Made by a program: the position numbers and the translations under genes. Shown one piece after another: positions 6,170-30,247 of a stretch of 43,098 nucleotides of DNA. The notes under the pieces were generated by a model. The model was not told the DNA's origin and ran no database searches. It saw nothing but the letters and a program-made list of their open reading frames with translations. Source of the DNA: Nioella sp. MMSF_3534 (GTDB lineage: Bacteria; Pseudomonadota; Alphaproteobacteria; Rhodobacterales; Rhodobacteraceae). The stretch lies in assembly GCF_030732985.1 (NCBI RefSeq), contig NZ_JASHJX010000042.1, positions 1-43,098 of the forward strand, in the 5' to 3' direction. The number at the start of each line of letters is the position of its first letter. Positions within the stretch are counted from its first letter, which is position 1.

Positions 6170-6193
6170 GATTCCTTTGCCATGTGGCGCTGG

Positions 6194-6235
6194 AAGGATC
6201 TTGCAAGATCCTTTGAAGGTTTTTGCAAAAACCTT
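6194..6235. repeat. Two perfect 20-bp palindromes in tandem; probable bidirectional terminator
   Basis: AAGGATCTTGCAAGATCCTT (6194-6213) is followed after two bases by AAGGTTTTTGCAAAAACCTT (6216-6235). Each is a perfect 20-bp palindrome with the same AAGG...TTGCAA...CCTT frame. They lie between the convergent carboxypeptidase gene and ccoS. Each hairpin is flanked by T or A runs, so they could stop transcription from both sides. The shared frame also fits a dispersed extragenic palindrome family. Confidence 0.75.
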
Positions 6236-6243
6236 TCCCGCGC

Positions 6244-9101: not shown

Positions 9102-10529
9102 TCAGTTCTCCCGTCCGTTGAACACGGTGTCCTCAAAGGTCCGTGTGCCGCTGCTCTGGTCTTCCACCCAAAGGCGGAAATCGGTGCGGTCCAGGCTTGC
9201 TGCCGGATCGCCCGGGCGTGCCAGGACATAGACCCGCTGCAACTGGGTGGTGTCGGCGGGCACAGTCACGGTCAGGAGGTCGGTGCCCTCCAGTTCCACC
9301 CGCAGGATCTCGTCCGAAGTCAGCGAGATGTGGAAGTCCGTTGCATCGTGCTGCATGTTTCTGATCCGCACATCATATGTGTTGCGGATGGTTCCGTCCG
9401 ACAGGGTCACGTAGGTCGGATTGCGCACCGGCGACACGGTGATGTCGATGTCGGAACGGATGAACAGCATCACGGTCAGGCCGATGCCGATTGCGGACCA
9501 CAGCACGGTGTAGATGATCGTGCGCAGGCGGAAGATATGTTGCCAGACCGGTTTCTTGGCATTCCCGGCTCGCTCATTCGCCTCGTCCGTAAGGGCCATG
9601 TAGTCGATCAGGCCGCGTGGCTTGCCGATCTTGGCCATGATGTCGTCGCAGGCGTCGATACACAGCGCGCAGGTGATGCATTCCAGTTGCTGACCATCGC
9701 GGATGTCGATGCCCACCGGGCAGACATTGACGCAGGCCATGCAGTCGATGCAGTCGCCAAGCTGGTCGGCATCCGCGCCCTTGCGGTGCTTGCCGCGCGG
9801 TTCGCCCCGCCAGTCACGATAGGCGACAGTCAGCGAGTCTTCATCCATCATCGCCGCCTGAATCCGCGGCCAGGGGCACATGTAGATGCAGACCTGTTCG
9901 CGCATGAAACCGCCGAACACGAAGGTGGTGAAGGTCAGGATGCCGATTGTGACATAGGCCACGTAGGGCGCCTGCAAGGTGACCAGATCAACCAGCAGGG
10001 TCGGCGCATCGGTGAAGTAGAACACCCAGGCCCCGCCGGTGGCGACCGCGATCAGGAACCAACTGATATACTTGAACACCCGAAGGCGGATCTTCCTGCC
10101 GTCCCACTTGGCTTTCCACAGGCGCAGGCGCGCGTTGCGGTCGCCTTCAATCCAGCGTTCCACCGTATAGAAAAGGTCCGTCCAGACGGTTTGCGGGCAG
10201 GCATAGCCACACCAGACCCGGCCAAGCGCCGACGTGAACAGGAACAGGCCAAGCCCGGCCATGATCAGAAGGCCCGCGACGAAGTAGAATTCATGCGGCC
10301 AGATCTCGATCCAGAAGAAGAAGAAGCGGCGGTTGGCAAGGTCCAGCAGCACCGCCTGATCGGGCAGCGAGGGGCCGCGATCCCACCGGATCCAGGGCGT
10401 CAGGTAATAGATGCCCAGGGTGACGATCATGATGATCCACTTGAGGTTCCGGAAATTGCCACTCACGCGCTTGGGAAAGACAGGTTCACGGGCGGCGTAG
10501 AGCTTTTTCGGTTGTTCTGTGGAACTCAT
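9102..10529 (-). CDS. ccoG: Cbb3 oxidase accessory protein CcoG, polyferredoxin
   Basis: CcoG (RdxA/FixG) is a membrane iron-sulfur protein that reduces Cu(II) to Cu(I) during copper delivery to the cbb3 oxidase. The 475-residue protein has several membrane helices, a CGYACPQTVW motif in the second third, and a bacterial-type double ferredoxin cluster (CIDCMACVNVCP ... CITCALCIDACD) near the middle. A periplasmic immunoglobulin-like C-terminal domain follows. The ATG is at 10529. An FNR box centred about 80 bp upstream suggests induction at low oxygen. It is the first gene of ccoGHIS, and the hairpin array separates it from ccoP. Confidence 0.96.
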   Translation of the reverse strand: MSSTEQPKKLYAAREPVFPKRVSGNFRNLKWIIMIVTLGIYYLTPWIRWDRGPSLPDQAVLLDLANRRFFFFWIEIWPHEFYFVAGLLIMAGLGLFLFTSALGRVWCGYACPQTVWTDLFYTVERWIEGDRNARLRLWKAKWDGRKIRLRVFKYISWFLIAVATGGAWVFYFTDAPTLLVDLVTLQAPYVAYVTIGILTFTTFVFGGFMREQVCIYMCPWPRIQAAMMDEDSLTVAYRDWRGEPRGKHRKGADADQLGDCIDCMACVNVCPVGIDIRDGQQLECITCALCIDACDDIMAKIGKPRGLIDYMALTDEANERAGNAKKPVWQHIFRLRTIIYTVLWSAIGIGLTVMLFIRSDIDITVSPVRNPTYVTLSDGTIRNTYDVRIRNMQHDATDFHISLTSDEILRVELEGTDLLTVTVPADTTQLQRVYVLARPGDPAASLDRTDFRLWVEDQSSGTRTFEDTVFNGREN

Positions 10530-10601: not shown

Positions 10602-10615
10602 TTGACGTGGATCAA
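10602..10615 (-). promoter_or_regulatory. FNR box upstream of ccoG
   Basis: TTGAC-GTGG-ATCAA matches the FNR consensus TTGAT-N4-ATCAA at 9 of 10 positions. Its centre (10608.5) is about 80 bp before the ccoG start. If FnrL activates from -41.5, transcription would begin near 10567, leaving a leader of about 40 nt. Confidence 0.8.
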
Positions 10616-10667: not shown

Positions 10668-10833
10668 CTGATGCGACAATTCACCCGTAGAAACGCAACA
10701 ACCGGCCTCAGGGAAAGGTTGGCATTTGACAAGCGCAACGGGATCGGACCTGCGGGTGGATCAACCCACGCGAGATTGCTGCGTCCTGCACAAGGGATAA
10801 GGTGTCACGATAGGTGCCGCGCGGGACAAGGGA

Positions 10834-11092
10834 GGTGTCGGTTCTGCAGGAAACGCGCGAACAGGACCAGAACCGACACCCTTTCCATCGGCCGGGAGGG
10901 GCCTCCGGATCTCTTGTCTCTTGTGGTGTCGGCCCTGCAGGAAACGCGCGAACAGGACCAGGGCCGACACCAGTCCCGCCGGCCGGGAGGGGCCTTTGGG
11001 ATCTCTTGTCTGTTTTGGTGCCGGCCCTGTAGGAAACGCGCGAACAGGACCAAGGCCGGCACCGTGCACCGAAGACCGGGAGGGGTCTTCGG
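10834..11092. repeat. Three tandem ~92-bp stem-loop units with covarying stems (ccoP-ccoG gap)
   Basis: This fills much of the 578-bp gene-free gap between ccoP and ccoG. Units start at 10834, 10925 and 11017. Each begins with a 47-nt hairpin (10834-10880, 10925-10971, 11017-11063) with 13-bp arms, for example GGTGTCGGTTCTG and CAGAACCGACACC. The loop keeps AGGAAACGCGCGAACAGGAC in all three. Stem changes are compensated: two T-A pairs in unit 1 become C-G in unit 2, and one T-A in unit 2 becomes C-G in unit 3. Unit 3 also has one mismatch. A second hairpin follows in each unit with an invariant GGGAGG loop (10894-10899, 10985-10990, 11078-11083) and again different stems. On the plus strand units 1 and 2 then end in a T-rich tail (TCTCTTGTCT...). 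Candidates are tandem small RNAs, an mRNA 3' structure of ccoNOQP, or a palindromic repeat family. The rest of the gap (10668-10833) shows nothing recognisable. Confidence 0.85.
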
Positions 11093-11107
11093 ATCTTGTG
11101 TCGGGGA

Positions 11108-12010
11108 TTACTCCCCGCCGCCCAGAGAATGGACGTAGATGGACACCGAACGAATCTCGGCTTCGCTGAGACGACCGGCAGCGCTGGCTTCCGCCGACCA
11201 CGGCGGCATGACGCCGAACCGCGAGAAGCGAACGGTATGCTCCAGCGATGCCTCATCCCCGCCATAGAGCCAGATGGCATCGGTCAGGTTGGGGGCACCG
11301 AGGAACCGGTCGCCGGTGCCGTCATCCATGTGGCAGGATGCACAGTTGTTGAGGAACACCTCTTCGCCTGCGGCGGCAAGCGTCGCATCATGTTCCTGGT
11401 TCGACAGGTTGCGGACATACTGCACCACGCTCGTGATTTCCTCGTCCGACAGGATCTCGTCGAAGGCGGTCATCTCGGAGTAGCGGGCATCGAAGTCGTC
11501 CTCGTTCCGGATGCCGTGGCTGATGGTATAGTGGATCTCGTCGACCGATCCGCCCCACAACCAGTCATCGTCCAGCAGGTTGGGATAGCCGACCGCACCA
11601 GCCGCGCCAGAACCGTGGCACTGCGCACACCAGGTGCGGAAGATCGCGCCGCCGCCCTGGATTGCGTAGTTGTAGAGGTCGGGGTTCTCGTCGGCAGTGA
11701 TTGCCGCAAGCTCCACCTCTTCGATCTGCGCGCGGATCGGGGCGTTCATCTCTTCGAAGGTTGCGATATCGGCAGCCACTTCGCCCCGGGTCGAGTACCC
11801 CAGAACACCGGATGTCGCGGAACTGACCAAGGGCCAGGCCGGATAGAGCACGGTATAGACCACGCCCCATGCGATCGTGGCATAGAAGGTCCATAGCCAC
11901 CAACGCGGCATCGGGTTGTCGAACTCCTTGATCCCATCCCAGATGTGACCGGTGGTATTCGGATCACCCTCTTGCAGGATCTGTTCTTCGGGATGTTTTT
12001 CTTCGGTCAT
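11108..12010 (-). CDS. ccoP: Cbb3-type cytochrome c oxidase subunit III (dihaem)
   Basis: CcoP carries two c-type haems that pass electrons from soluble or anchored cytochrome c toward CcoO and CcoN. The 300-residue protein has an N-terminal FixP-type segment ([24 protein letters not shown]) with one transmembrane helix at about 37-60. Two periplasmic cytochrome domains follow, with C128-AQ-C131-H132 and C223-AS-C226-H227. Candidate methionine ligands are present in each domain (for example near FGVMPPW). The start overlaps the ccoQ stop by four bases. It is the last structural gene; the tandem hairpins begin about 15 bp after its stop. Confidence 0.97.
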
Positions 12011-14677: not shown

Positions 14678-14691
14678 TTGATCCATGTCAA
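14678..14691 (-). promoter_or_regulatory. FNR box, ccoN-proximal
   Basis: TTGAT-CCAT-GTCAA on the plus strand (TTGAC-ATGG-ATCAA toward ccoN) is a 9/10 consensus match. The centre is 104.5 bp before the ccoN start. Activation from -41.5 would put the ccoN start point near 14643. Confidence 0.85.
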
Positions 14692-14709: not shown

Positions 14710-14749
14710 TTGATGCAGGTCAATGTGTGCCCGTGACGTGCACGATAAT
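14710..14749 (+). promoter_or_regulatory. FNR box (14710-14723) and -10 box (14744-14749) for the stress-protein gene
   Basis: TTGAT-GCAG-GTCAA matches the FNR consensus at 9/10. GATAAT at 14744-14749 is a strong -10. A start point near 14757 would put the box centre at about -41, the class II activator position, 22 nt before the ATG. The site lies 18 bp from the ccoN-proximal box, so the divergent promoters may share FnrL binding. Confidence 0.8.
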
Positions 14750-16734: not shown

Positions 16735-16748
16735 TTGATCTCGATCAA
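16735..16748. promoter_or_regulatory. Perfect FNR box between fnrL and hemN
   Basis: TTGAT-CTCG-ATCAA is a 10/10 match, extended to the 18-bp inverted repeat ATTTGATC-TC-GATCAAAT (16733-16750). Its centre is 42.5 bp before the hemN ATG and 43.5 bp before the chosen fnrL ATG. The site can serve hemN activation and fnrL autoregulation. Confidence 0.92.
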
Positions 16749-29986: not shown

Positions 29987-29993
29987 CCGAGTC

Positions 29994-30087
29994 GAGAGGT
30001 TGGCGCGGGCAAGCGCCTCGCCAACCTGGTCAGGACCGGAAGGTAGCAGCCACAACGAGCCCCGCTTGGGTCGATGTCCAGCCTCTC
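29994..30087 (+). ncRNA. ffs: Signal recognition particle RNA (4.5S, small bacterial type)
   Basis: The SRP domain IV core is plain: GGTCAGGACCGGAAGGTAGC (30028-30047) followed by AGCCA, with the Ffh-binding internal loop and GGAA tetraloop. The flanks pair well: GAGAGGTTGG at 29994-30003 with CCAGCCTCTC at 30078-30087 (one G-U), then CAAGCG with CGCTTG, and CTCG with CGAG. This gives a single long hairpin of about 94 nt, normal for the short bacterial form. The RNA joins Ffh to target membrane proteins to the translocon. The exact ends are inferred from the closing stem and could extend a few bases. The rest of the gap (30088-30247) shows no gene. Confidence 0.93.
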
Positions 30088-30247
30088 ACCACCACACCAG
30101 CCGCCGGAGGATTCATGGATATTGTCACATCCCTCCGGGCCCGCGCTGCCTGATCCGTCAGACGATCTGACCTAGGCACCGTCCGCCCGGCCGTAAAGCG
30201 AACCGCCCCTTGGGGCTTGTCTTACGTGTGTTCCGGGAACCAGATCA

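Follow-up and report, generated by a model that had tools for sequence, protein, structure and literature searches.

The closest described system to the element studied here is HRC-8-4, a structured RNA motif that ranked high in a 2021 study and had no function assigned (Brewer et al. 2021, PMC8632094). As described there, its 160 representatives are found only in Rhodobacterales, mainly in the gap between ccoNOQP and ccoGHIS and often before hvrB, and they form a terminator-like hairpin with a conserved tip for which a terminator-embedded aptamer or an HvrB site was suggested (PMC8632094). The main text of that paper contains no occurrence of FNR, its two uses of 'tandem' are unrelated to the motif, and the role it suggests is that of a cis switch. 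In the literature searched, HRC-8-4 was named only in PMC8632094, and no other treatment of this RNA was recognised. In ChIP studies of R. sphaeroides, ccoNOQP/uspA is listed among the targets of FnrL (PMC2908626; PMC4263372). Two FNR-controlled small RNAs are described from other bacteria, namely FnrS of E. coli, which is FNR-driven and made at low oxygen (PMC8139620, PMC4263372), and NarS, which derives from the narK 3' end, is controlled by FNR/NarL and has nirC as its reported target (PMC8139620).

The stretch of DNA analysed here (the window) is a 43,098-nt sequence from a contig of Nioella sp. MMSF_3534, whose minus strand carries genes read from their translations as ccoN, ccoO and ccoP as well as ccoG, ccoH and ccoI. 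An array of three ~92-nt units lies in the gap between ccoP (11108–12010, minus; an ORF named from its translation, with relatives found by tblastn) and the next downstream gene, ccoG (9102–10529, minus; an ORF named by reading its translation), so that the ccoP stop side lies at 11108, the ccoG start side at 10529 and the array in the 3'UTR of ccoP. Tandem Repeats Finder reported a period of 92, 2.9 copies and a score of 341 at 10834–11096. Two further features of the window are a 22-bp unit repeated twice with 81% matches at 6193–6236, just past the end of ccoI, and a bacterial small SRP RNA gene at 29993–30091 (Rfam RF00169, 55.9 bits).

Within 10834–11092, each unit consists of a 13-bp hairpin with a 20-nt loop (hairpin A) and a shorter hairpin with the loop CCUCCC (hairpin B); on the minus strand hairpin B comes before hairpin A. 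The three hairpin A stems have 13 pairs apiece and are located, in minus-strand order, at 11017–11063 (unit 3, the first copy after ccoP, with the loop core CUGUUCGCGCGUUUCC), 10925–10971 (the middle copy) and 10834–10880 (the last, terminal copy on the RNA, with the tail ACACCUCCCUUGU). The latter two scored 64.4 and 63.2 bits with covariance model CM R1, and the copy at 11017–11063 scored 62.2 bits, a value that is not independent, since its own sequence was included when the model was built. The loop reads GUCCUGUUCGCGCGUUUCCU on the minus strand and AGGAAACGCGCGAACAGGAC on the plus strand, with no difference among the three copies. Folding placed hairpin B, also on the minus strand, at 11069–11092 in the first unit, where a 9-bp stem carries the CCUCCC loop, with GGCC-CCUCCC-GGCC cores at 10981–10994 in the middle unit and 10890–10903 in the last.

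The first-pass annotation had described three tandem hairpin units with constant loops and compensatory stem changes, and both Tandem Repeats Finder and a comparison of the stems bear this out. Two T-A to C-G pair changes separate the hairpin A stems of units 1 and 2 and one separates units 2 and 3, as had been counted; overlooked was an additional change in the copy nearest ccoP, which forms a U-G wobble when read on the minus strand and sets C against A, a mismatch, on the plus strand. Hairpin B was also as claimed, its plus-strand loop GGGAGG being kept while the stem is GGCC in units 1 and 2 and CCGAAGACC in unit 3. The restriction of the array to one locus was upheld by a DNA search of the strain's own genome, which matched it at one place, and by a search of the same genome with the 19-nt loop pattern (at most 1 mismatch), which returned the three array copies only.

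Folding of 10800–11110 gave z = −5.2 for the minus strand, with none of 100 shuffles equally stable, and z = −2.6 for the plus strand, with one of 100 shuffles equally stable; the three units folded singly gave z = −5.5, −2.9 and −2.2. No Rfam family matched the array at gathering cutoffs, and FnrS gave no match at E ≤ 5 within 10790–11110. A DNA search of plasmids returned only weak matches (22–58 nt, E 0.08–0.9), and a single 18-mer match in viral contigs, where the stem is absent, was put down to chance. A reading of the loop as a peptide (VLFARFL) was rejected because all three codon positions were nearly invariant, in a set for which the loop itself had been one of the selection criteria.

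Beyond the window, the 19-nt loop pattern (at most 1 mismatch) occurred in 87 of the 295 genomes sampled from the family, whereas a reversed control pattern occurred in one genome only (G017) of the same 295. The loop was present as a single copy in 84 of these 87 genomes, which excludes a generic palindromic repeat family. Among 40 pattern-negative genomes, 30 of 35 places supplied a ccoP 3' region, and 11 of these 30 keep the 16-nt core with 0–4 mismatches (6 exactly), while 19 do not. A second loop class starts with AUCUG instead of UCCUG and has an unchanged 16-nt core (L204, L205, L206, L208, L210 and L214). An 18-mer scan of the collection, which selects for the exact loop, yielded at least 118 stretches. 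Among the carriers with names are Paracoccus denitrificans, where the hairpin follows ccoP (L123), and members of Roseovarius, Shimia, Thalassovita, Rhodovulum and Gemmobacter. Admitting only hairpins whose stem scored 6 or more gave 206 instances, 164 of them distinct; six loop matches lacking cco context (L093, L099, L127, L149, L183 and L189) were dropped as chance or coding matches, leaving 158 distinct hairpins, among which some from near-identical species remain in the counts. ORF names in relatives (hvrB, DUF2270, rpoD and dnaG) are readings of translations.

In 76 aligned hairpins, the lower stem was paired in 96.9% of cells, compared with at most 51.9% in slid versions. Cells changed on both sides numbered 128 against 38 ± 8 in shuffled alignments (0/500 reaching this value), and all 9 of 9 pairs had been changed on both sides, against 6.9 ± 0.8 (4/500). 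The loop core was almost invariant across 153 hairpins, a set chosen partly by this loop. The proposed selection on RNA structure is borne out; the cruciform offered alongside it was not supported. A covariance-model search of 289 genomes of the class, run with stricter filters, gave strong matches confined to three genomes of the family and nothing convincing outside the family; three outside matches, with E of 4e-4 to 9e-4 per genome, were taken as chance.

On the ccoP strand, the pair table of the 76 hairpins contains 46 G-U cells and 21 unpaired cells. Because of this excess, and because the extra stem change in the array is U-G rather than C-A on that strand, the RNA is most likely the minus-strand one, in the sense of ccoP. 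Of the two strands that the first-pass annotation had considered, the minus strand is thus the better choice, as the position after ccoP and the T-rich tails also indicate. On average, 3.1 T were found in the 8 nt after the stem, compared with 1.3 upstream (n = 153), suggesting that the hairpin probably terminates the RNA. Of 142 single-copy hairpins, 118 had at least 3 T in some 6-nt stretch 3' of the stem. The plus-strand terminator with a T-rich tail that had been envisaged fared poorly (2 sites against 1.1 ± 1.0 in shuffles); in relatives the T-rich tail sits on the opposite strand, and nothing in the analysis favours the plus strand on which its CsrA-type reading depended.

Hairpin A is almost certainly the HRC-8-4 motif, judging by order, genomic place and architecture. 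Both occur in Rhodobacterales (the order being inferred here from the named relatives) between ccoNOQP and ccoGHIS, both are terminator-like hairpins with a strong stem and well-conserved tip nucleotides, and both have hvrB neighbours in the published description (PMC8632094) and in our set. The element is a real, conserved RNA already named as a motif, and the window holds an unusual, triplicated form of it. The tandem triplication, the covariation on 76 hairpins and the genomic FNR rule set out below are new, and these, together with the stand-alone genes, go beyond the published description; a literature search carried out mostly at listing level brought up no mention of the FNR rule.

Classified by upstream context, the 158 distinct hairpins comprised 99 within 110 nt of ccoP, 9 later tandem copies, 3 at contig ends that were set aside (L022, L134 and L163), and 47 others. 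The 47 comprised 26 with ccoP 111–700 nt away, 10 following hvrB and 11 without ccoP within 700 nt. Exact matches to the FNR box TTGAYNNNNRTCAA were present in all 47 of these non-tandem hairpins unattached to ccoP, in the region from −260 to −50 relative to the loop core, a range picked once the first cases had been seen; the boxes lie 63–204 nt upstream and are followed by a −10 element at class II spacing. The same box was found in 0/42, 0/44, 0/47 and 0/47 cases in four equal-size windows further upstream, four control palindromes at −260 to −50 gave 0/47 each, and the background frequency over the loci analysed was 0.24 per kb. Downstream of the hairpin, boxes occurred in 17/47 (−30 to 180), 5/46 (160 to 370) and 0/45 (370 to 580) cases and mostly belonged to ccoG. 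The six dropped loop matches had no FNR box within 300 nt; counted as stand-alone hairpins, they would make the tally 47/53.

The hairpins attached to ccoP followed the complementary pattern: none of the 99 had an FNR box at −260 to −50, and all 37 for which the ccoN start was covered had one within 300 nt before ccoN. In the stand-alone promoters, A was found at −11 in 82% of 46 cases, in the class II register; this position follows the box's first base by 37 nt and is numbered on the assumption of a box centre at −41.5. An FNR-type promoter at class II spacing is thus present in relatives, and in the window it is available only via ccoNOQP. The predicted stand-alone RNAs measure 66–188 nt to the end of the stem, with 5' ends expected ~48 nt past the start of the FNR box; Gemmobacter megaterium (L095) and Sagittula marina (L061) provide stand-alone cases. 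In the window, two FNR boxes lie between uspA and ccoN. The one at 14678–14691 (TTGACATGGATCAA on the minus strand), upstream of ccoN, presumably drives the transcript that has the array at its end, and the same letters are tabulated at the uspA/ccoNOQP ChIP site of R. sphaeroides (PMC2908626); the other is at 14710–14723. A further box at 10602–10615, past the array and before ccoG, gives ccoG a candidate promoter of its own. Another exact FNR box is present at 16735–16748, outside the cco genes. Other proteins of the CRP/FNR family could also use such boxes.

One hairpin is particularly simple in its setting. At L171 (5900–6240, minus), in a Rhodobacteraceae MAG, it stands alone among other-strand genes read as rpoD and dnaG, cco genes are absent from the 8 kb covered, and FNR boxes are located at −163 and −63. 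To judge by this layout, the locus would be a minimal gene for the hairpin A RNA.

Tandem copies were also found elsewhere. Within the window's genus, further arrays occur at L002, L004 and L005. Arrays of two copies (L058, L074) were present in Pseudoruegeria aquimaris, with a spacing of 91 nt, and in Rhodobacteraceae bacterium 63075, with one of 286 nt. In Shimia thalassica (L073 and L087), two copies are ~2 kb apart, one after ccoP and the other with its own FNR box before ccoG. Across tandem arrays, internal copies were followed by 0–3 T in 6 nt and terminal copies by 3–6, leaving aside L003, which is cut by a contig end so that its last copy is not a true terminal one; in the window, the corresponding counts were 0 after the internal copies and 3 after the last hairpin A. 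The scarcity of T after internal copies suggests that transcription of an array may yield a single RNA bearing several loops, and the poor U tail of the window's last copy suggests that termination here may be weak. The triplicated form would be a natural variant of dosage or valency.

On this evidence, we consider it probable that Rhodobacterales make an FNR-activated small RNA that acts through its loop, and that hairpin A is the terminator at its 3' end. The structure, the FNR-box association and the promoter spacing are features of the sequences themselves, as is the strand assignment; expression, processing, action in trans and the partner are what we infer. Where ccoP is directly upstream, the FNR-driven ccoNOQP mRNA would supply the RNA as its 3' end, presumably released by processing; where it is not, a dedicated class II FNR promoter would give an RNA of ~66–188 nt ending in the hairpin. 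At low oxygen, the RNA would accumulate and offer its almost invariant ~16-nt loop to a partner in trans, most likely mRNAs bound through short seeds in the manner of FnrS, or alternatively a loop-binding protein. Since the element is tandemly multiplied in the window's genus, a single ccoNOQP transcript there would bear three loops. The first-pass annotation had linked the array to assembly of the cbb3 oxidase, and what stands of that link is shared FNR control. The best reading is that the constant is an FNR-driven transcript ending in the hairpin rather than any neighbouring gene, which would explain why the hairpin is found beside ccoP, hvrB or ccoG and fits a small RNA that is either transcribed by itself or derived from the ccoNOQP mRNA's 3' end.

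By this reading, the RNA would be analogous, not homologous, to FnrS: it would likewise be FNR-driven, it shares no sequence kinship with FnrS, and it is often embedded in the ccoNOQP 3'UTR. As described in PMC8139620, NarS likewise derives from the 3' end of a respiratory mRNA under FNR control; it differs in gene and lineage and has a reported target, and the two were compared by description only. Searches for antisense sites gave no clear excess. Near-complementary sites (19-mer, at most 3 mismatches) numbered 90 outside the motif against 107 for the reversed control, summed over 23 genomes of the family, and a G-U tolerant antisense pattern gave 244 against 212, summed over 6 genomes, a slight excess that is not clear. 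Pairing of the loop with the starts of neighbouring genes was inconsistent, with mean z between −0.74 and +0.91 for eight genes; z fell below −2 at 20/135 ccoG, 7/58 ccoP and 7/53 uspA starts, counts that include repeated loci and refer to single-letter shuffles.

The switch raised by Brewer et al. (PMC8632094) would be a terminator-embedded aptamer or HvrB-binding attenuator controlling the downstream ccoG or hvrB. The hairpin has the terminator architecture and conserved loop on which that paper drew its comparison with terminator-embedded riboswitches, it often lies upstream of ccoG or hvrB, and in 12 of 89 instances the DNA from the hairpin to ccoG lacks an FNR box. In the other 77 of 89, ccoG has its own FNR box behind the hairpin. 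In 9 instances, a gene of one family on the opposite strand lies within 1,100 nt downstream, indicating that the motif does not have to serve as a gene leader, and the long ORFs nearest to the L171 hairpin on both sides read in the other direction. Furthermore, hvrB precedes the motif in 10 instances, and of 20 genomes with the motif, 11 (including that of the window) gave no HvrB-like match at E ≤ 1e-60 in a search where the candidates scored were part of the first-look set. Because of these ccoG boxes, opposite-strand genes, hvrB order and HvrB absences, the genomic context misfits cis control of a co-transcribed downstream gene as a general rule, and we regard this switch as quite unlikely. 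It is also unlikely that the hairpin serves merely as a 3' stability and termination element of the ccoNOQP mRNA, a role that suits the 99 of 158 instances within 110 nt of ccoP; it does not account for the 47 hairpins with FNR boxes of their own, of which several are elsewhere or have genes intervening between them and ccoP (with an opposite-strand case at L140), and an invariant loop would be superfluous for a plain terminator.

CsrB-type sponges are not known to share the single-copy hairpin pattern seen here. A protein-binding decoy, in which an FNR-driven RNA titrates or recruits a loop-binding protein and tandem copies raise valency, would be a variant of the small RNA reading, so that its likelihood overlaps with the one given above; taken separately, it is possible yet doubtful. 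It would suit the near-total invariance of the loop in sets partly chosen by that loop, the lack of a clear antisense-site excess and the arrays with few T after internal copies, whereas no candidate protein emerged and the loop is single-copy in 84 of 87 genomes. Members of the CcsR/cuckoo family occur in 3'UTR settings, and the first-pass annotation had proposed kinship with these anti-Shine-Dalgarno small RNAs. The likeness lies in the C-rich CCUCCC loop of the window's hairpin B, and CcsR1 (RF02791) was the best Rfam match (E = 0.0016). Its score of 22.9 bits is far below the gathering cutoff of 65.3, and the loop of hairpin A differs. CCUCCC just upstream of hairpin A was found in 20 of 156 sequences, 7 of these 20 being from the window's genus, against 2.8 expected from single-letter shuffles, and may thus mean something in some lineages; absent in 136 of 156, it is not a general feature, and membership in this family is very improbable.

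Returning to the FNR-activated small RNA, what had been a riboswitch guess becomes, through the FNR rule, a concrete and testable candidate for an oxygen-response small RNA in the order to which Paracoccus denitrificans belongs, and the likely function of the motif shifts from riboswitch to oxygen-responsive small RNA. More tentatively, the RNA may be a lineage-wide FNR-activated element of Rhodobacterales, mobile between the ccoNOQP 3'UTR and a stand-alone promoter, whose loop is read by a dedicated RNA-binding protein and for which the array would be a multivalent form. If such a protein exists, the oxygen response of these bacteria would gain an RNA arm undescribed for the order in the literature searched.
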